This document shows, piece after piece, positions 53,280-61,874 of a DNA stretch of 64,000 bases. Location: NCBI RefSeq assembly GCF_009755275.1, contig NZ_WQLA01000005.1, positions 248,001-312,000 on the forward strand, given 5' to 3'. The position numbers and the translations under genes were made by a program. Under the pieces are notes generated by a model. It ran no database searches. It was not told the DNA's origin and worked only from the letters and a program-made list of their open reading frames with translations. The DNA comes from Mucilaginibacter aquatilis (GTDB lineage Bacteria > Bacteroidota > Bacteroidia > Sphingobacteriales > Sphingobacteriaceae). Each line of letters opens with the position of its first letter. Within the stretch, counting starts at the first letter, position 1.

Positions 53280-55604
53280 TCATATATCTTTTTCGTCTTC
53301 GTGCAGTATGTTTACACGTAAGGCTCGTAATCCTGATATACTCTGTAACTCTTCAACCTCTAATACTTCAACGTCATTACCTAATATACCTTTCTGCTGT
53401 AAATGCATTATATGATCGCGGTATTCCCTTTCCTCGTTGGTATTTGCATAAATAATAACTACGGTTCCGGGCTGGGTAATACGCTCATTGGTTCCTTTAA
53501 TGAATGCCTTGTCAATACGTTTCTTTACAATTTCAAAACGTGCATTATAAGTCCCGTCAACATCAAAACGTTTTTCATCCATCCTAAACCGTATGGACAT
53601 TGTTGTACTATAGGCCAGCACCAGCGTAGTTACCTCAAGCGTATAAGGCAGCGTAGTTTTATAACGATGGTGTTCGCGTTCCAGTTCACACAGCACTTTT
53701 AGCTGCCAAAGCCGAAGACTACGGAAATGCACAGGTAGAAACGTACGGTTAGGCGTTATTGATGATCCGATGTAGAGATTATGTTCTACACCGTCGCTTT
53801 TAAAGCGCTCGTAATAATGCGGAAATATTTCCTGTGCGACTGCCTGCCGTTCATCAAGCAACGCAGCCATTTTTTTATTAATAGTTGATACTGTTGTATC
53901 ATACTTACGCCTGTAAGTGTAATATAAACCTGTATTTTTATCTACCTGCTTAAAATAGTTACCAATTTCGGGGGTGAAATGGCCGCTTACAGTGGCCGAC
54001 TGCAGTAAAGGATGCACCTTCTCGTCAATAAAATGCTGTATGAATTGTTCTGTATCAGTACGTATGAGTACCGAAGCATTGTGTGTGAGGTTTTTAAACT
54101 CCTGCAGCCTTGGCAAGTAAGCTGATGCATGCTTGTCAATGCCTTGTATTTGCAGCACAATAGGCACCAATGCTTCAAGTTGGTTGTTCAAATCCTTTTG
54201 AATACTGCGATTACGCGAGTCTGAAGATGCTTTAATATCAACCTGGCCATACAGGGGATAAACGTCTTCAAATACAATTTCCTTTAATTCATATTCAAGA
54301 TTGTTATCCTGGCGCTCTATAAATTTATAAGCCTCCTTTTCAAATTTCCATTGAACGCTTGGATGCAGTGTAGTGTACTCATTTTGAATAACTGCCTGTA
54401 TACGGTTTTGCTTGTAGGCTATCTGCCGGTCAATAGTATTTACCAAAAATGGCATTACCACCTCAAGCTTATGTGCATTTACACTGTTCAGTTCGCCTTT
54501 TCGTAATGATACCAGCTCAATTATACCCAGCAACTGTTCATTCTTCATTACCGGGGCCAAAATAAAGCTCTGTATATTTTGCCTTAAAAATTCATGAGCC
54601 ATTTCACTGCCGGGGTGTTCCAAAAAAAACTGACGCGTATCTGATATGGCAAAATACTCACTTTTGCCAAGCAATGCCTGGTATGATTTAGGACCTAAGA
54701 TATCGGTACTAACGGCCTCATGATTATTGCCCAGCATAAAACTTCTTATTTTACGCAAGGGAGCAATGCTGCTAAACTTATTTTCCTCGGTATTGAACGC
54801 AGTGAACCCTATGCGTAAATCGGGGATTTTGTAAATTGACCTGAATATACTTTCAAAATCCTGCTCAATTTCAGTATCGTGTAAATCGGTCAATAGCGTA
54901 CCTTTTAAAGCCGATACTGCATTTTCAATTGTAGAATCAAAGAGGTTAACGATGGCAAAGCCTTTCAATAAATAGCTACCCTGCGGAAACAATCTCTTCC
55001 ACAACTCAAGATTATCGTAACTGTTAATTAGCTCATTAATATCAGCCTCGGTAAGCTTTACAGCTTTATCTGTTGGGATTATTTCTAAAAAATCAGCGTT
55101 GTATAGAATTCGGTAATGCCTTATGATACCCGTTGCGGTTGGTATATCATAAAACATGGGTTTTGCAAAATCAAGCTGTGTGTTGTAAAATTCATTAAGC
55201 ACTAAGCAACAGCTCATTACGTAAAACTGGTGGCTGTCAAAATCACGTATGGAGATGTCAAAATCGGTACCGGCAGCGCTCAAGATGTTTTTAAATCGCT
55301 GAGTACTATTGAGCATAAAATTATGAAACGGCACCGTAACGCCTTTTATCTCGTTTTGAGTAAGTGCCGCCGGAAACAAGTCTTCAAGAAGGTAATTAAT
55401 TACCGGGGCGTGTTGCTCTAATTCTTCCTGGTGTGTAAATCCTGTTCGCAGCTGCGGGTAGGGCTCTATTTCCTTCAACAAGTATGCAGCACGCTCAGCA
55501 GCATAGCCAGTTTGTTGGGCAGCCACCTTTTCCAGGTGCTCAATAAGCACGTGAAATGATATATGAATTTCGAAAGGGCTATCTTTAAAGGGCTGAACAC
55601 TCAT
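53280..55604 (-). CDS. GAF domain-containing protein of unknown output
   Basis: A 774-residue cytoplasmic protein. A GAF domain lies about residues 230-420: IPDLRIGFTAF, then FFLEHPGSEMAHEFLRQNIQ and FILAPVMKNEQLLGIIELVSL. Downstream is a helical region with a striking conserved-looking block, FEDVYPLYGQVDIKASSDSR NRSIQKDL, and a long C-terminal part including PNRTFLPVHFRSLRLWQLK and a coiled region. No kinase, cyclase, GGDEF, EAL or HTH motif was found, so the output is unknown. A TAGTTTTG -7 box on the minus strand is 20 bases upstream. It may be a sensor acting through protein contact. Confidence 0.75.
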   Translation of the reverse strand: MSVQPFKDSPFEIHISFHVLIEHLEKVAAQQTGYAAERAAYLLKEIEPYPQLRTGFTHQEELEQHAPVINYLLEDLFPAALTQNEIKGVTVPFHNFMLNSTQRFKNILSAAGTDFDISIRDFDSHQFYVMSCCLVLNEFYNTQLDFAKPMFYDIPTATGIIRHYRILYNADFLEIIPTDKAVKLTEADINELINSYDNLELWKRLFPQGSYLLKGFAIVNLFDSTIENAVSALKGTLLTDLHDTEIEQDFESIFRSIYKIPDLRIGFTAFNTEENKFSSIAPLRKIRSFMLGNNHEAVSTDILGPKSYQALLGKSEYFAISDTRQFFLEHPGSEMAHEFLRQNIQSFILAPVMKNEQLLGIIELVSLRKGELNSVNAHKLEVVMPFLVNTIDRQIAYKQNRIQAVIQNEYTTLHPSVQWKFEKEAYKFIERQDNNLEYELKEIVFEDVYPLYGQVDIKASSDSRNRSIQKDLNNQLEALVPIVLQIQGIDKHASAYLPRLQEFKNLTHNASVLIRTDTEQFIQHFIDEKVHPLLQSATVSGHFTPEIGNYFKQVDKNTGLYYTYRRKYDTTVSTINKKMAALLDERQAVAQEIFPHYYERFKSDGVEHNLYIGSSITPNRTFLPVHFRSLRLWQLKVLCELEREHHRYKTTLPYTLEVTTLVLAYSTTMSIRFRMDEKRFDVDGTYNARFEIVKKRIDKAFIKGTNERITQPGTVVIIYANTNEEREYRDHIMHLQQKGILGNDVEVLEVEELQSISGLRALRVNILHEDEKDI

Positions 55605-55721: not shown

Positions 55722-58289
55722 TTAAAGCCTTACATTGAGTGATACATATGGGTACCAGCCCTCGGTAGAGTGACCGGCCAAAACCTGTATTACTGCTAGC
55801 CCTGCCGGTGCAAAGTAAACTCCGCCCCCTGTACCCGCATGCCATTTATTTGATGATTGCCCGCGCACCCAAACCCTGCCGGTATCATAAAATCCTGTTA
55901 CCCCTAACTGCCCGGGCAACACATAACCGGCAATGTTAAATAGGTTAAGGCGCGCCTGCAGGTTGTTGTAAAACATATGATCGCCGGCAAAGCGGTTACC
56001 CAGGTAGCCCAGTAAGTTTCCGCCCTGTCCGCCTAAAAACATTGACTGATAAAATGCCGGCTTACCAACACTTAGGCCGCCGCCAACCCTGTCTGATATT
56101 ACAAACGTGCCTTTGGCATTAAGGCTAAAGTAGTAGGTAAACTCCGGGCGTATTTGCGCAAAGGACCTTGTATAGCTATTTAAACCGTTATATGCCTGCA
56201 AGGTAACGTTAACATAATAACCGTTGCTGGGCAATACATTACTGTTACGTTTATTGGCGTTGAAATTAACCAGCAATCCAATATGGGCTTTGTCTTTATT
56301 AACAGTCAAGCTATCATAAGAATTCAAAAGGTTGGGATTGTTAATAAAACGACCTTCATTGTCTTCGCGGTGCAGGCGATAGTATTGAAACGATGGCCCT
56401 GCACTCAGGGTGGTATTAGCGCCCAACCACCAGCGCAATGCGGCATCAACCTGGTAGGTGTTATAACGCGTACGGTAAAAGCGCCTGTACCCCGGAAATT
56501 TGAACAAAGGCGTTTCATTACCTCTGCCAAAAAAGTTGAGGGTATTGTTTGGAGCCTGCACAAATGCGTTTAATACAATGTCGGCCTTGCCGATAGCATC
56601 TATCCACTCACCATTATATTTTATACGAAAAGCATCGGTTGCAAAAGCGTGCGTAACCAAAAGCTGCTGTATACTGGCATACGGCAACTTACGAAAGCCA
56701 TTCCTTCGGGTATACTTAAATCCTGCGCCAAGTAATATGCCGTCATCAGGGTTTATTGCCCCTGTTGCCAGCGGCATCCATACATTGTAAGGGTTATTTT
56801 GAACAAATTGGGTATTTAATGAATCATTGCTTAAATGTGTTTTCAACAAGCTACCGTTGCCGGTTATGGCTACACTATCTCTGCGGTTGTAAATACGTAC
56901 TTTGCTTTGTGCCTGTTGTACATCATAAGTTTTTTGTCCTTTAGCGCCGATAATCCGCAGCTTTATGGGTGAGTGTGTATAATTAATAACCACCTTATCG
57001 TTTCCGGCCTCGGTGTATAATCTTATTTCACGGGTAATTTGCGGGTTATAAACCATGCTGAGCAATTCATCCTCAACCTCGCCTGCTTTACTTATTTTAT
57101 TTATTTGTATACGCATGCCGCCATCAGCAGCATCAGTTATTATTACCTGTTCGTTTTTGTCAGTGGTGCGCAGGTCTACAGTTTTGTTTACAAACCGGTA
57201 ATACTCATCCATTGCCGTAGGTATATTGTTACGGCGTTGCTTTAGCTTATTAAAAAGTTCATCATGCCGTATTTTATAAACTTCGGGCGGAAGCAGCTTT
57301 AGTGAAGCCTCCAGCACCTCATCGCTCTCTGCCTTCACAAAGTCATTTGCCATACGCATCCAGTCGTTATAACTAATTTGCGCATCGGGCAACGGCTGTA
57401 TAAACCGGGTTTTTATCAGTGAGTATTTTACCCTTGGTATGTCTCCGTCAAAATGATCAAGCGTTGGGCTAATCCATGACCGGGCAGCCAGTGATGGCAA
57501 CACCCCTTCACTAACATGAAAAACCTGATCACGATCTCGTGGAACAGCGTAATATTTTTTGTCTTTATTCTTTTTTTCGTAAGCCCAACGCCATTGGTCT
57601 TCATGACGGTCCCAATCACCTAAAAGCAAATCGAGCATGCGGGCTTTTAAAAATTGTTCACCGTTAACCCGGTTATCATTGTCTTCTTTAAGCTCGCCCA
57701 GCATTTTGTCAGTGTTGTCTGATTTACCGGTGGGTTCGCGCTCTTCAAGTAGTACTACCAAGCCATTGAATATTTTGCTGTACTCACCTAAAGCAGCATC
57801 GGGCGCAATTACGCCAATTATCGGGTTAGCATGAGGCACGCCTGCAGCATCAGCAAGCGGCGGAACAACCAGTGCCGAATACGGATGCTGACTGCTTAAT
57901 GCATCATCAAGCCAATCAATAGCAAATGTACCTCTGAAATTTGGTGGAAGTAGTTTATCAGGCGTTTTCTCAACGCTTCTTATAACCCACTCTTTACCGT
58001 TTTTATCTTCGAGCCTTAATGATTTTGATTGCAAACCACCACCTTGCTTAAGCGGCTTGAGGCCACCATAAACTTCAGATATTTTTATAAGCGGCAGTTT
58101 AACAGTTGTAGCCCATTCCTCACGGTAGTTTTTGCCAAATAGCCATTTATGAATACCGCTTACCTGGTTGTATGACGGGTGGACTTTTACTAAGGTGCTA
58201 TCAGCAAAATAAGCCGTTGATTTTTGCTGAGCATAACTTGCTGCTGCTATACCAAGCAGTGATGTGAGTAAGGTGAATTTGCGAAGCAT
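55722..58289 (-). CDS. outer-membrane BamA-like barrel with an N-terminal kinase-like region
   Basis: An 855-residue exported protein; signal peptide to about 20. Residues about 40-290 resemble an atypical protein-kinase fold of the CotH/HipA/Fam20 kind: SKSLRLEDKNGKEWVIRSVE (88-107, Lys-strand-like), LLGDWDRHEDQW (222-233, Asp227 as catalytic Asp) and PRDRDQVF (250-257, metal-Asp-like). After a beta-rich linker, the C-terminal half has outer-membrane barrel strands of the surface-antigen type, with LGVTGFYDTGRVWVRG and GTGGGVYFAPAGL near the end. The barrel call is good; the kinase-like call rests on motif order only. Neighbours are a GAF protein downstream and a Crp/Fnr regulator upstream. 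Confidence 0.8.
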   Translation of the reverse strand: MLRKFTLLTSLLGIAAASYAQQKSTAYFADSTLVKVHPSYNQVSGIHKWLFGKNYREEWATTVKLPLIKISEVYGGLKPLKQGGGLQSKSLRLEDKNGKEWVIRSVEKTPDKLLPPNFRGTFAIDWLDDALSSQHPYSALVVPPLADAAGVPHANPIIGVIAPDAALGEYSKIFNGLVVLLEEREPTGKSDNTDKMLGELKEDNDNRVNGEQFLKARMLDLLLGDWDRHEDQWRWAYEKKNKDKKYYAVPRDRDQVFHVSEGVLPSLAARSWISPTLDHFDGDIPRVKYSLIKTRFIQPLPDAQISYNDWMRMANDFVKAESDEVLEASLKLLPPEVYKIRHDELFNKLKQRRNNIPTAMDEYYRFVNKTVDLRTTDKNEQVIITDAADGGMRIQINKISKAGEVEDELLSMVYNPQITREIRLYTEAGNDKVVINYTHSPIKLRIIGAKGQKTYDVQQAQSKVRIYNRRDSVAITGNGSLLKTHLSNDSLNTQFVQNNPYNVWMPLATGAINPDDGILLGAGFKYTRRNGFRKLPYASIQQLLVTHAFATDAFRIKYNGEWIDAIGKADIVLNAFVQAPNNTLNFFGRGNETPLFKFPGYRRFYRTRYNTYQVDAALRWWLGANTTLSAGPSFQYYRLHREDNEGRFINNPNLLNSYDSLTVNKDKAHIGLLVNFNANKRNSNVLPSNGYYVNVTLQAYNGLNSYTRSFAQIRPEFTYYFSLNAKGTFVISDRVGGGLSVGKPAFYQSMFLGGQGGNLLGYLGNRFAGDHMFYNNLQARLNLFNIAGYVLPGQLGVTGFYDTGRVWVRGQSSNKWHAGTGGGVYFAPAGLAVIQVLAGHSTEGWYPYVSLNVRL

Positions 58290-58409: not shown

Positions 58410-58994
58410 TTACCGGCCTACGCTTGCTTTCCTTATCCTGCTTAATGTTTCGGGCGATATGCCTAAATAAGAAGCCACCATACTTTGGGGAAAGCGCTGT
58501 AAAAAATAAGGATATGTATTTTGCAGGTTGTTAAACCGCTCTTCGGCCGTAAGGCTTATAGCAGCGTGCACCCTGTTTTGGGTGGCAATATTTGCTCGCT
58601 TGTCAAGCTCCTTTATCATACCGGCAAAAGCAGGTACCTGGGTTTGCAGTTCCTCGCTTTGGGTATTTGATATTATGAGTAGTTCAGCATCTTCAACAGC
58701 GTCAATATTATATTTTGATGGCGTTTGCAGCATATAGCTTTCATAGTCGGCTACCCACCAGTTTTCTAAACTAAAACGTATAATATGCTCATGGCCCTTA
58801 TCATCAACTGAATACATACGAAAAGCACCTCTTATAACGAAGCCAATTTGTTTGTTTACATCGCCTTCCTGTAAATAATATTGTCGCTTTCTCAGTTTAC
58901 GCAGTTTAAAGGTTTGCTCTATAAGCTTTTTATCGCCGGCGCTTAAATTACTTTTGGCGTAGTTTTCAATATAATTAAATAGGGCCTCGAACAT
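58410..58994 (-). CDS. Crp/Fnr family transcriptional regulator
   Basis: A 194-residue regulator with a cyclic-nucleotide-binding-type beta barrel (about 20-115: LRKRQYYLQEGDVNKQIGFV, IRGAFRMYSVDDKGHEHIIRF). A C-terminal HTH is at about 165-190 (SMVASYLGISPETLSRIRKA). No cysteine cluster of Fnr type is seen. The effector is unknown. It lies 120 bases upstream of the barrel gene on the same strand and 324 bases from the divergent DUF5686 gene. A minus-strand -7 box is present at 59049-59056. Confidence 0.9.
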   Translation of the reverse strand: MFEALFNYIENYAKSNLSAGDKKLIEQTFKLRKLRKRQYYLQEGDVNKQIGFVIRGAFRMYSVDDKGHEHIIRFSLENWWVADYESYMLQTPSKYNIDAVEDAELLIISNTQSEELQTQVPAFAGMIKELDKRANIATQNRVHAAISLTAEERFNNLQNTYPYFLQRFPQSMVASYLGISPETLSRIRKASVGR

Positions 58995-59318: not shown

Positions 59319-61874
59319 ATGAAACTCTTTACTAAGTTAGTATTAATCATCAGTATAATTACTGTTTCCTTTAACACGCTGTATGCACAAAGCACTGTTG
59401 TAAAAGGCACTGTAACCGATGCCAAAACAAAAGAAGCATTACCCTATGTAACGGTAACATTTGGCGACAGCAACCAGGGTGCACCAACAGACGGCCAGGG
59501 ACGCTTTATCATAAGAACCAACGATAAGTTTGAATACATTAAAGTGAACTACGTTGGCTACCGTACGGCTACCCGTAGCATTGAGGCCGGGCAAGAACAA
59601 ACCATAAATATTGCCATAACCGCTGATAGCAAGCAGTTGGGCGATGTTGTTGTAAAAGCCGGTAAAAAAAAGAAGTATACCAATAAAAATAACCCTGCTG
59701 TTGAGCTTATAAGGCAGGTAATAGCCCACAAAGCACAAAACCAGGTAACCAGCTATAACTTTGCCGAGTATAAGCAGTATGAGCGCATGACCTTTTCGCT
59801 TAGCAACCTTAGCGACAAGTTTAAGAACAGAAAAATTTTTAAAAATTACCAGTTCATGTTCCGCGAGCAGGATTCAACTGCTATTGGCGGTAAAACATTG
59901 CTGCCTTTATATATGGAAGAGAAACTTTCGGCTAATTATTACCGCAAAGTTCCTTACGCCCAAAAGCAGGTGGTTGAAGCCAACAAGCAGGTTAAGTACG
60001 ATGAAACATTTGTTGATAACCAAGGCCTCACCACCTACTTCAACCGCATGTATCAGGACATTAATATTTACGATAACAACGTATCGTTGCTGAGCAACCA
60101 GTTGTTAAGTCCTATCTCTGATAATTCGCCTAACTACTATAAGTTTTTTATTACCGATACCATAAAAGATCAAAAACCTAATCTTATTGAATTAAGCTTT
60201 ACGCCACGCAATACCATTAACAAGCTTTTTGAAGGCCGCATTTATATTACTATGGATGGCAATTATGCTGTGCAAAATGCGGTGCTTACGGTGAATAAGA
60301 ACATCGATCTTAACTTTGTACGCCAAATGGAGGCGCGCTTATCATTCGAAAAAAATTCGGATAACCGTTACCATCTAAGCCAAAGCAATTTAAAAATTGA
60401 GTTTGCTTTAAATAAAAATAAAGGCGGTGGTGTATTTGGTGAACGCCTGGTTACCATACGCGATTTTAAATTGAACTCGCCCCGACCCAAAGAAACTTAT
60501 GACGGCCCTGCCCAGGTATATGCAAAACAGTCTGACGTACAAACTGATGCTTACTGGACCGAAAGCCGCCCAGATACGCTTGACAAAGCCGCTGCCGATT
60601 TATATAAAAACGTAGATAGCCTGCAAACCATACCATCGTTTAAACGCACTATGGATATTGCTACGTTGGTGCTGGCCGGTTACAAAAATTTTGGGCCGTT
60701 TGAAATGGGACCGGTTAACACGTTTTACAGCTTTAACCCGGTTGAAGGATTCAGAGCTCGCTTGGGCGGCCGTACTACCACTGCGCTAAGCAAACGGTAT
60801 TACTTTGAAACTTATGGAGCATATGGCACCCGCGACCAAAAGTTTAAATACTTCCTAAGCTCTACGTATTCACTAAACAACAAGTCTATATACTCGTTTC
60901 CACAAAACTACATTCGCGCCAGCTTTCAGCATGATACCAAGGTACCAGGACAGGAACTTGAATTTGTGCAAGAGAGCAACTTTCTACTGTCATTTAAACG
61001 TGGCGCTAATGATCAGTGGCTGTATAACGACATCTTTAAACTTGATTACGTACACGAGTACTTAAACCACTTTTCGTACGCTGTAGGCTTTAAAAAATGG
61101 AATCAAAGTCCGGCTGGGGCGTTACAATTTCAAAACCTCCTGCCAAACGGAGCCTTGAATAATGTAAACCTTATTCACACTACCGAACTGTCTTTACAGT
61201 TGCGCTTTGCACCGCACGAAAAGTTTTATCAAGGTAAATTGTATCGTACACCTATTCCTGATAAGTACCCTATTTATACCCTGCGTTATACACAAGGATT
61301 TAGAGGCTTATTAGGTGGCGACTACAACTACCAAAACGTTGTAGGTAACATTAGCAAACGCTTTTACCTATCGCAACTAGGCTTTACTGATGTTAGCACC
61401 GAAGGTGGCTACCTGTTTGGCAAAGTACCGTTCCCTTTAATGGATATACACAGGGCTAATCAAAGCTATGCTTTCCAGTTTCAGTCGTTTAACATGATGA
61501 ACTTTCAGGAGTTTGTGAGCGACCATTACGCCACGCTTACCATTGACCATAATTTTAACGGCTTTTTGTTTAACAAAATACCGTTACTACGCCGTTTAAA
61601 ACTGCGCGAGGTGGTAAACTTTAAAGGTTTATGGGGAGGTGTAAGAGCCGAAAATAACCCGGCTAATGACCGTTCCCTGCTGCGCTTTCCAACCAACAGC
61701 TCGAGCCTTGCAACAACCTATACGCTTAACAATGGCATGTATGCCGAGGGAAGCGTGGGCATTGGAAACATATTTAAAGTTTTAAGGTTTGACCTGGTAC
61801 GCCGCTTTACCTATTTAGATAACCCTAACGCTCCTAAGCTTGGTTTAAGAACATTTGTGAAGTTTGATTTTTAA
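59319..61874 (+). CDS. DUF5686 outer-membrane protein with CarboxypepD_reg domain
   Basis: An 851-residue exported protein. Signal peptide to about 24, then a CarboxypepD_reg domain (about 26-110, VVKGTVTDAKTKEALPYVTV TFG). Next come a short charged segment (KKKKYTNKNNPAVELIRQV), the DUF5686 region and a long beta-barrel C terminus rich in alternating hydrophobic strands; the final residues LGLRTFVKFDF end in Phe as outer-membrane barrels do. Relatives are common in Bacteroidota outer membranes; function unknown. It is followed by a long hairpin. Confidence 0.9.
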   Translation: MKLFTKLVLIISIITVSFNTLYAQSTVVKGTVTDAKTKEALPYVTVTFGDSNQGAPTDGQGRFIIRTNDKFEYIKVNYVGYRTATRSIEAGQEQTINIAITADSKQLGDVVVKAGKKKKYTNKNNPAVELIRQVIAHKAQNQVTSYNFAEYKQYERMTFSLSNLSDKFKNRKIFKNYQFMFREQDSTAIGGKTLLPLYMEEKLSANYYRKVPYAQKQVVEANKQVKYDETFVDNQGLTTYFNRMYQDINIYDNNVSLLSNQLLSPISDNSPNYYKFFITDTIKDQKPNLIELSFTPRNTINKLFEGRIYITMDGNYAVQNAVLTVNKNIDLNFVRQMEARLSFEKNSDNRYHLSQSNLKIEFALNKNKGGGVFGERLVTIRDFKLNSPRPKETYDGPAQVYAKQSDVQTDAYWTESRPDTLDKAAADLYKNVDSLQTIPSFKRTMDIATLVLAGYKNFGPFEMGPVNTFYSFNPVEGFRARLGGRTTTALSKRYYFETYGAYGTRDQKFKYFLSSTYSLNNKSIYSFPQNYIRASFQHDTKVPGQELEFVQESNFLLSFKRGANDQWLYNDIFKLDYVHEYLNHFSYAVGFKKWNQSPAGALQFQNLLPNGALNNVNLIHTTELSLQLRFAPHEKFYQGKLYRTPIPDKYPIYTLRYTQGFRGLLGGDYNYQNVVGNISKRFYLSQLGFTDVSTEGGYLFGKVPFPLMDIHRANQSYAFQFQSFNMMNFQEFVSDHYATLTIDHNFNGFLFNKIPLLRRLKLREVVNFKGLWGGVRAENNPANDRSLLRFPTNSSSLATTYTLNNGMYAEGSVGIGNIFKVLRFDLVRRFTYLDNPNAPKLGLRTFVKFDF

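Follow-up and report, generated by a model that had tools for sequence, protein, structure and literature searches.

How Gram-negative bacteria phosphorylate molecules beyond the cytoplasm is poorly understood, as no adenosine triphosphate (ATP) supply is known for the periplasm. Among the described proteins with a protein-kinase-like fold, PI4KII carries out membrane-associated phosphate transfer, and Fam20C is a secreted kinase with a degenerate partner. For HipA, the presence of an adjacent antitoxin gene has been used as a sampling criterion (PMC8262856). Omp85 proteins were surveyed by Heinz and Lithgow in 2014, who described a “Metallo” group carrying PF00149, a domain that they term a metalloprotease, as well as “noNterm” proteins; the word kinase is absent from the running text of that survey (PMC4104836). 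Here, we describe a gene of Mucilaginibacter aquatilis located in a stretch of 64,000 nucleotides (contig NZ_WQLA01000005.1, positions 248,001 to 312,000; referred to as the window, with all coordinates given as positions within it). Its minus-strand open reading frame (ORF; 55722-58289, ATG start) encodes a protein of 855 amino acids in which a predicted atypical kinase-fold domain is joined to an Omp85-type barrel. An initial annotation, made from the sequence alone, had inferred a surface or periplasmic phosphotransferase anchored by its own barrel, and this central inference is supported by the results below. The protein belongs to a large family in which a kinase-fold domain lacking any Pfam or NCBIfam kinase model is often joined to a phosphatase-type domain and is linked to polyphosphate synthesis, and it offers a concrete case for asking whether, and from which donor, phosphate moves at the outer membrane. 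A literature search of titles and the beginnings of abstracts, from which subscription papers and preprints were excluded, returned nothing on the kinase-fold domain or its fusion to a barrel.

Predicted fold and structural matches

The gene (all of its features lie on the minus strand) encodes a Sec signal peptide, a kinase-fold domain, a small all-beta domain and the barrel. The signal peptide, with a putative cleavage site, covers approximately residues 1 to 21 (58227-58289) and shows a hydrophobic run followed by SYAQQ. The C-terminal barrel was the sole region of the protein recognized by Pfam and NCBIfam, and neither PF08757 (CotH) nor PF00149 was matched by Pfam. The AlphaFold2 model of residues 25 to 395, built from 80 sequences, had a mean predicted local distance difference test (pLDDT) value of 89.1 and a predicted template modeling (pTM) score of 0.88, and it contains the two-lobed fold that defines the protein-kinase-like superfamily (residues 25 to 367, 57189-58217). 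Foldseek found 21 PDB chains at an E value of ≤0.001, namely, CtkA (the best, 9.2e-7), PI4KII, CotH, a Golgi casein kinase that we take to be Fam20 and two pre-40S ribosome chains. With VIA-align, the top result among the matches listed was PI4KII beta (Z of 15.1 over 266 residues at 4.9 Å, model residues 2 to 344), followed by CotH (Z of 13.0, 243 residues, 4.0 Å), CtkA (12.4), VPS34 (11.5), HipA (10.4) and Fam20A (10.1); models without a clear match typically give a best Z of 7 to 8. The titles of 47 of the 50 matches listed name a kinase or HipA, in line with the fold proposed by the initial annotation, and those of the other three (4uwk, 4uwf and 4uwh), presumably VPS34, name a compound only.

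The order of elements along the modeled domain fits a kinase. A Gly-rich hairpin (residues 78 to 94, strands 78-83 and 90-94), with the loop GGGLQSK (residues 83 to 89, 58023-58043) joining the first two strands of the N lobe, is followed by the strand 100-105 carrying Arg104 (57978-57980), which would be the usual strand-3 Lys position, and by a helix (123-132) with Asp129 at the helix-C position (57903-57905). Then come a strand (178-183) ending in Glu182 just before the presumed hinge (57744-57746), a helix (210-223), the catalytic loop GDWDRHEDQW (residues 224 to 233, 57591-57620) with Asp227 as the proposed catalytic base, two more strands (233-240 and 243-250) and the metal-binding motif PRDRDQVF (residues 250 to 257, 57519-57542) with Asp252 and Asp254. 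These equivalences to kinases were assigned by element order, without superposition. The residue numbers given by the initial annotation (Asp227, Asp252 and Asp254) are correct, and LRLEDKNGKEWVIRSVEK lies at residues 91 to 108.

Conservation of the active site

We aligned 122 distinct homologous domains; in another, more diverse set, the 57 relatives share 25 to 69% identity with the window domain. Residues G52, R56, G76, G83, G84, R104, K108, D129, P136, E182, D220, D225, R228, D252, D254, G262, P334 and R352 were invariant in all 122, G85 was kept in 117, and D227 and H229 were each kept in 120. The free variation of Asp227 that would have refuted the inference of the initial annotation was not observed. 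Since the active-site set is invariant across so many distinct sequences, GDWDRHEDQW and PRDRDQVF can be excluded as chance motifs. The Gly-rich loop, the catalytic-loop Asp and the metal-binding Asp expected of the superfamily are all present. The Lys of strand 3 is replaced by Arg104 throughout, and an invariant Asp129 occupies what element order makes the position of the helix-C Glu. The Gln-for-Asn and Arg-for-Lys anomalies pointed out by the initial annotation are likewise properties of the whole family, with Q232 kept in 121 of the 122 domains and R104 in all of them.

Asp227 and His229 were lost jointly, in only two members, where Ser replaces the former and Arg the latter. Both are barrel-less copies belonging to groups of tandem or divergent barrel-less genes (L114:1629-6648 and L117:1936-5275), in each of which one copy reads Ser-Arg-Arg and its neighbors keep the intact Asp-Arg-His. 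This is as expected if the copies form pairs of a kinase and a pseudokinase, as judged from their sequences. The two loci come from one genus (g17), so they may reflect a single event. Elsewhere (L206:5452-10687), two kinase-fold genes also stand in tandem, the first of them very divergent (profile E value of 6.3e-35).

Relationship to known kinase families

At the sequence level, the similarity to kinases is faint. A PDB search with the single protein gave no relevant match (best E value of 0.71). When a profile of 58 diverse members was compared to 177,635 PDB sequences, CtkA came first, exactly on the catalytic loop (E value of 0.048), with unrelated proteins next (0.062 and 0.099). Alignment of profiles with hhalign gave a score of 30.9 for the CotH relatives, against a maximum of 22.3 for 29 decoy families (a set without the kinase family's own cluster and without c13, the cluster of CotH) and 19.0 for 60 column shuffles. 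The CotH alignment was collinear over 147 columns that take in the catalytic loop, the metal motif and the C-terminal helices, and PRDRDQVF fell on the WD.D..FG-like motif of the CotH relatives; its hhalign probability was low (6.6%). A relationship to HipA by profile was rejected, as its score (21.8) was inside the decoy range and was equaled or exceeded by 2 of 60 column shuffles. Both methods, the PDB profile and hhalign, point weakly to kinases through the same active-site columns. Pfam scans of the 58 members at an E value of 0.1 produced no match to HipA_C (PF07804), Fam20C, the PI3/PI4 kinases or any further kinase family except CotH, which a single member touched (PF08757; E value of 0.03, below the cut-off, none stronger), the window domain not being matched. 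NCBIfam gave nothing at an E value of 0.01 when the 58 members were scanned singly. DUF1598 was weakly matched by Pfam in 3 of the 58 (best E value of 0.0014), and the only PADLOC result for the window protein was a marginal Avs4 match over residues 347 to 484, mostly in the beta domain (E value of 0.0029).

Compared to the described systems, the domain resembles PI4KII alpha and beta most in structure but differs from them in the Pfam result, in having Arg for Lys and Gln for Asn and in being bacterial, exported and anchored by a barrel. CotH shares the fold and the motif order and is the best profile match by sequence, although it is separated by the near absence of PF08757 from the family. 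CtkA gave the best Foldseek value and the top, if weak, PDB sequence match. HipA is similar in structure, whereas its profile and HipA_C are not; in the window, the gene has a CRP-like regulator on one side and a GAF-like protein on the other, no antitoxin-specific search having been made. Fam20C and Fam20A have the same fold, and the degenerate copies in tandem genes provide a parallel to the Fam20 partner, but the Fam20C model of Pfam was not matched. The kinship with CotH, HipA and Fam20 put forward by the initial annotation therefore stands at the level of fold and does not extend to membership of any of these families by sequence models. We have filed the protein as a new kinase-fold family joined to an Omp85 barrel, distinct from CotH, HipA, Fam20 and PI4K, and by fold rather than as a proven kinase because of the missing strand-3 Lys.

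Barrel, export and domain architectures

The barrel claimed by the initial annotation was confirmed. Pfam recognized Omp85 (PF01103) at residues 604 to 826 with an E value of 2.8e-11 (43.9 bits, cut-off of 24), the NCBIfam Omp85 model reached 57 bits, under its cut-off of 200, and the full-length AlphaFold2 model (pLDDT of 85.3, pTM of 0.78) had 16 barrel strands at residues 503 to 853 (55731-56783). Barrels took up the 50 matches listed for this model, BamA and TamA structures giving Z values of 25.8 (BamA) to 22.8, with no fold assignment for the small beta domain. Both features of the Omp85 superfamily, PF01103 over the cut-off and a 16-strand barrel, are thus present. In such barrels both ends of the chain should face the periplasm, which makes a periplasmic location of the kinase-fold domain likelier than a surface one, so that of the two places named by the initial annotation the first is favored. 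Between the kinase-fold domain and the barrel, the small domain of residues 370 to 486 (56832-57182) is free of helices longer than three residues in the full-length model and has GND and G.KG patterns that, in our view, recall RTX-type beta rolls.

The loci fetched yielded 142 distinct members, whose architectures were counted with profiles built in this analysis. The beta domain was detected in 132 of them. The arrangement of the window protein (kinase domain, beta domain and barrel) was found in 70 members, and 59 (about 40%) had in addition an N-terminal calcineurin-like phosphoesterase-type domain, while 10 consisted of the kinase domain alone and 3 of the kinase and beta domains. PF00149 was recognized in both proteins scanned, one from a fusion locus (L061) and one from L207; in L207 and L215, kinase, phosphoesterase and barrel are encoded by three adjacent genes. 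The “Metallo” Omp85 group thus resembles our family in its barrel and in the phosphatase-type domain of these relatives, although the window protein lacks the PF00149 domain that defines the group. The region between PF00149 and the barrel in the “Metallo” proteins may be this kinase-fold domain, and the published description of that group may have to be refined.

A hydrophobic N terminus was found by a simple hydrophobicity scan in 137 of the 142 members (11 of them from possibly truncated ORFs), and four of the other five resemble signal peptides slightly below the threshold. Export signals are present in every architecture. The barrel-less forms of L094 and L097 and several of those of L114 and L117 look lipoprotein-like by sequence, and five barrel-less members of 426 to 433 residues have a single hydrophobic N-terminal anchor; the lipobox pattern was a loose one, and the 28 members that it picked out (33 including possibly truncated ORFs) were left out of account. 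In the barrel-less member of L121, a signal peptide is present without a clear lipobox, so tethering is not universal. Overall, the relatives look nearly all exported and mostly membrane tethered. A relative from a metagenome-assembled genome labeled uncultured Mucilaginibacter (L026) is 98% identical over the window protein, and a second copy in the genome of M. aquatilis is 38% identical.

Distribution and linkage to polyphosphate kinase

Of 296 Bacteroidota genomes sampled, 110 carried the domain. To describe its surroundings, we used the best 80 of 591 relatives, with flanks of 4.5 kb, which makes the neighbor counts lower bounds; neighbor families were named through Pfam on one or a few representatives each. 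PPK1 occurred in 49 of the 80 loci, an SdiA-regulated-like lipoprotein in 50 (weakly matched by Pfam, at 23.2 bits versus 21) and a homologue of the GAF-like protein in 46; 19 loci had an HD-PycTM or PycTM protein. The usual gene order was HD-PycTM, PPK1, SdiA-like, kinase and GAF. PPK1 lay within 10 kb of a domain gene in at least 16 of the 110 genomes, where 0.66 chance pairs are expected for genomes assumed to be 4.2 Mb. These 16 genomes come from nine families, and the two genes occur in either orientation relative to each other. This count used 135 of 139 domain rows (four fragment rows were dropped, two of G234 and one each of G130 and G066) and 101 PPK rows of a longer list; 68 of the 110 domain genomes had one of these PPK rows, and 16 is accordingly a lower bound. 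The domain was found in 26 of 30 genomes with a PPK1 similar to the linked type but in 84 of the 266 others (Fisher P value of 5e-9, uncorrected for kinship, so that related genomes are not independent); the group took in scores from roughly 500 bits upward against the query, including G162 at 499.8, a threshold picked after viewing the list.

A further 39 loci, 38 from other genomes and one being the second copy of M. aquatilis, had HD-PycTM-type genes in 22 cases, SixA-like histidine phosphatases in 10 and cyclase-TPR genes in 6. Since 20 of the fetched regions were partly picked for a nearby PPK, PPK counts in these loci are biased and are not evidence. In 15 of the 39, the fetched stretch contained no PPK, HD-PycTM, SdiA or GAF gene.

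Proposed function and alternative explanations

Kinase fold, conserved Gly-rich loop, catalytic-loop and metal-site Asp residues, barrel and signal peptide were all shown by computation, whereas the proposed catalysis, its substrate and its phosphate donor are inferences. We consider it fairly probable that the protein is an exported protein-kinase-like phosphotransferase that its barrel holds on the periplasmic side of the outer membrane. Asp227 would act as the catalytic base, Mg2+ would be bound by Asp252 and Asp254 together with Gln232, and Arg104 and Asp129 would form a pair in place of the usual Lys-Glu pair, by which the donor phosphates are positioned. The substrate would be a component of the envelope (lipid, glycan or protein), a lipid or an envelope glycan being favored by the position beside the membrane and the closeness to lipid kinases. 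The occurrence of kinase, phosphatase and barrel either fused or as three neighboring genes also supports a phosphotransferase, and the phosphatase carried on the same chain by about 40% of the relatives suggests that addition and removal of phosphate may be coupled. The repeated clustering with PPK1 would place the protein in polyphosphate metabolism or under its control. As to the donor, the invariant Glu182 argues for a nucleotide, and the PPK1 linkage together with the missing periplasmic ATP argues for polyphosphate.

Several observations weigh against a phosphotransferase of this kind. The strand-3 position is Arg in 122 of 122 domains, and Lys-to-Arg replacement there inactivates many classical kinases; Gln232 is kept in 121 of 122, where Asn is usual in related kinases (the barrel-less member of L121 has this Asn). 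To these are added the lack of a known ATP supply in the periplasm, the weakness of the CtkA, CotH and HipA sequence comparisons and the 15 further loci devoid of the typical neighbors.

The same two substitutions would suit a pseudokinase sensor, whose fold binds a nucleotide or polyphosphate without transfer and regulates the barrel or a fused or neighboring phosphatase, as the phosphatase-type N-terminal domain of 59 of the 142 members would allow. We regard this as possible but rather unlikely. A sensor need not retain the catalytic Asp and both metal-binding Asp residues in 120 to 122 of 122 domains, the two members that lost Asp227 sit beside intact copies, and 70 of the 142 members are built like the window protein, with no phosphatase on the chain. 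Moreover, there is a precedent for the replaced Lys in Lani_1194, a predicted kinase family that is reported to have Arg at this site and for which, likewise, the helix-C Glu could not be identified (PMC9758233). With this precedent and the invariance of both residues, Arg104 and Asp129 may be a swapped Lys-Glu pair.

The problem of the missing periplasmic ATP would be solved by an enzyme that takes phosphate from polyphosphate made by the linked PPK1 or acts on polyphosphate itself. The PPK1 linkage, the 26 of 30 against 84 of 266 distribution and the invariant basic residues R56, R104, K108, R228 and R352 are in its favor. On the other side, the invariant Glu182, presumably at the hinge, points to a nucleotide, the export of polyphosphate is hypothetical (PPK and PLD-type domains are all that Pfam finds in the linked PPK1), and many genomes with the domain, such as most of the sampled family f4, have no listed PPK nearby. 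We therefore think this explanation improbable. More speculative still is its combination with the phosphotransferase proposed above, a periplasmic, outer-membrane-anchored kinase-fold enzyme using polyphosphate made by the neighboring PPK1 instead of ATP, with basic residues (Arg104/Lys108 and others) adapted to this donor and the attached phosphatase reversing the reaction; if true, the envelope of the Bacteroidota would have a phosphorylation system that works without ATP. Finally, that the kinase fold is an artifact of the predictor and the true fold unrelated is scarcely credible, for although no kinase family model matched over its cut-off and the 50 listed structural matches have root mean square deviations of 3.5 to 5.4 Å and identities of 7 to 16%, a Z of 15.1 over 266 residues exceeds the 7 to 8 typical of models without a clear match, the two weak sequence methods agree on the kinase active-site columns and the pTM is 0.88.

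Neighboring genes

In the window, the kinase-fold gene is followed by a codirectional gene for a GAF-like protein of 774 amino acids (53280-55604, minus strand). This is the conserved neighbor counted above, mostly found directly downstream of the kinase-fold gene, as in the window; its GAF match is weak, with no Pfam domain over the cut-off. The upstream gene encodes a CRP-like cyclic nucleoside monophosphate-binding regulator (58410-58994, minus strand; PF00027, E value of 2.1e-9) with a homologue in only 1 of the 80 related loci and is therefore no conserved partner. Further upstream, on the other strand, there is a protein with carboxypeptidase-regulatory-like and DUF5686 domains (59319-61874), a homologue of which was seen in only 7 of the 80 loci.

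Both PPK genes of M. aquatilis are on contigs other than that of the window. The second copy of the kinase-fold gene is near a GAF/SdiA-like/PPK1/HD-PycTM cluster, about 7 kb away from its GAF end and 10.5 kb away from its PPK1. In L034 (250-1539) and other related loci, an HD-PycTM fusion, in which PycTM is the membrane domain, is encoded beside PPK1 and the kinase-fold gene. The HD-PycTM and cyclase-TPR neighbors match Pycsar models of PADLOC, the similarity of cyclase-TPR to the Pycsar cyclase being weak; these neighbors may serve defense or envelope signaling. Of the further set of 39 loci, three (L178, L198 and L200) contain a gene of the CotH family (cluster c13); in two of them (L198:3335-4516 and L200:11572-12705, identified by Pfam in L200) it is near the kinase-fold gene, PPK1, PAP2 and porin-like genes.

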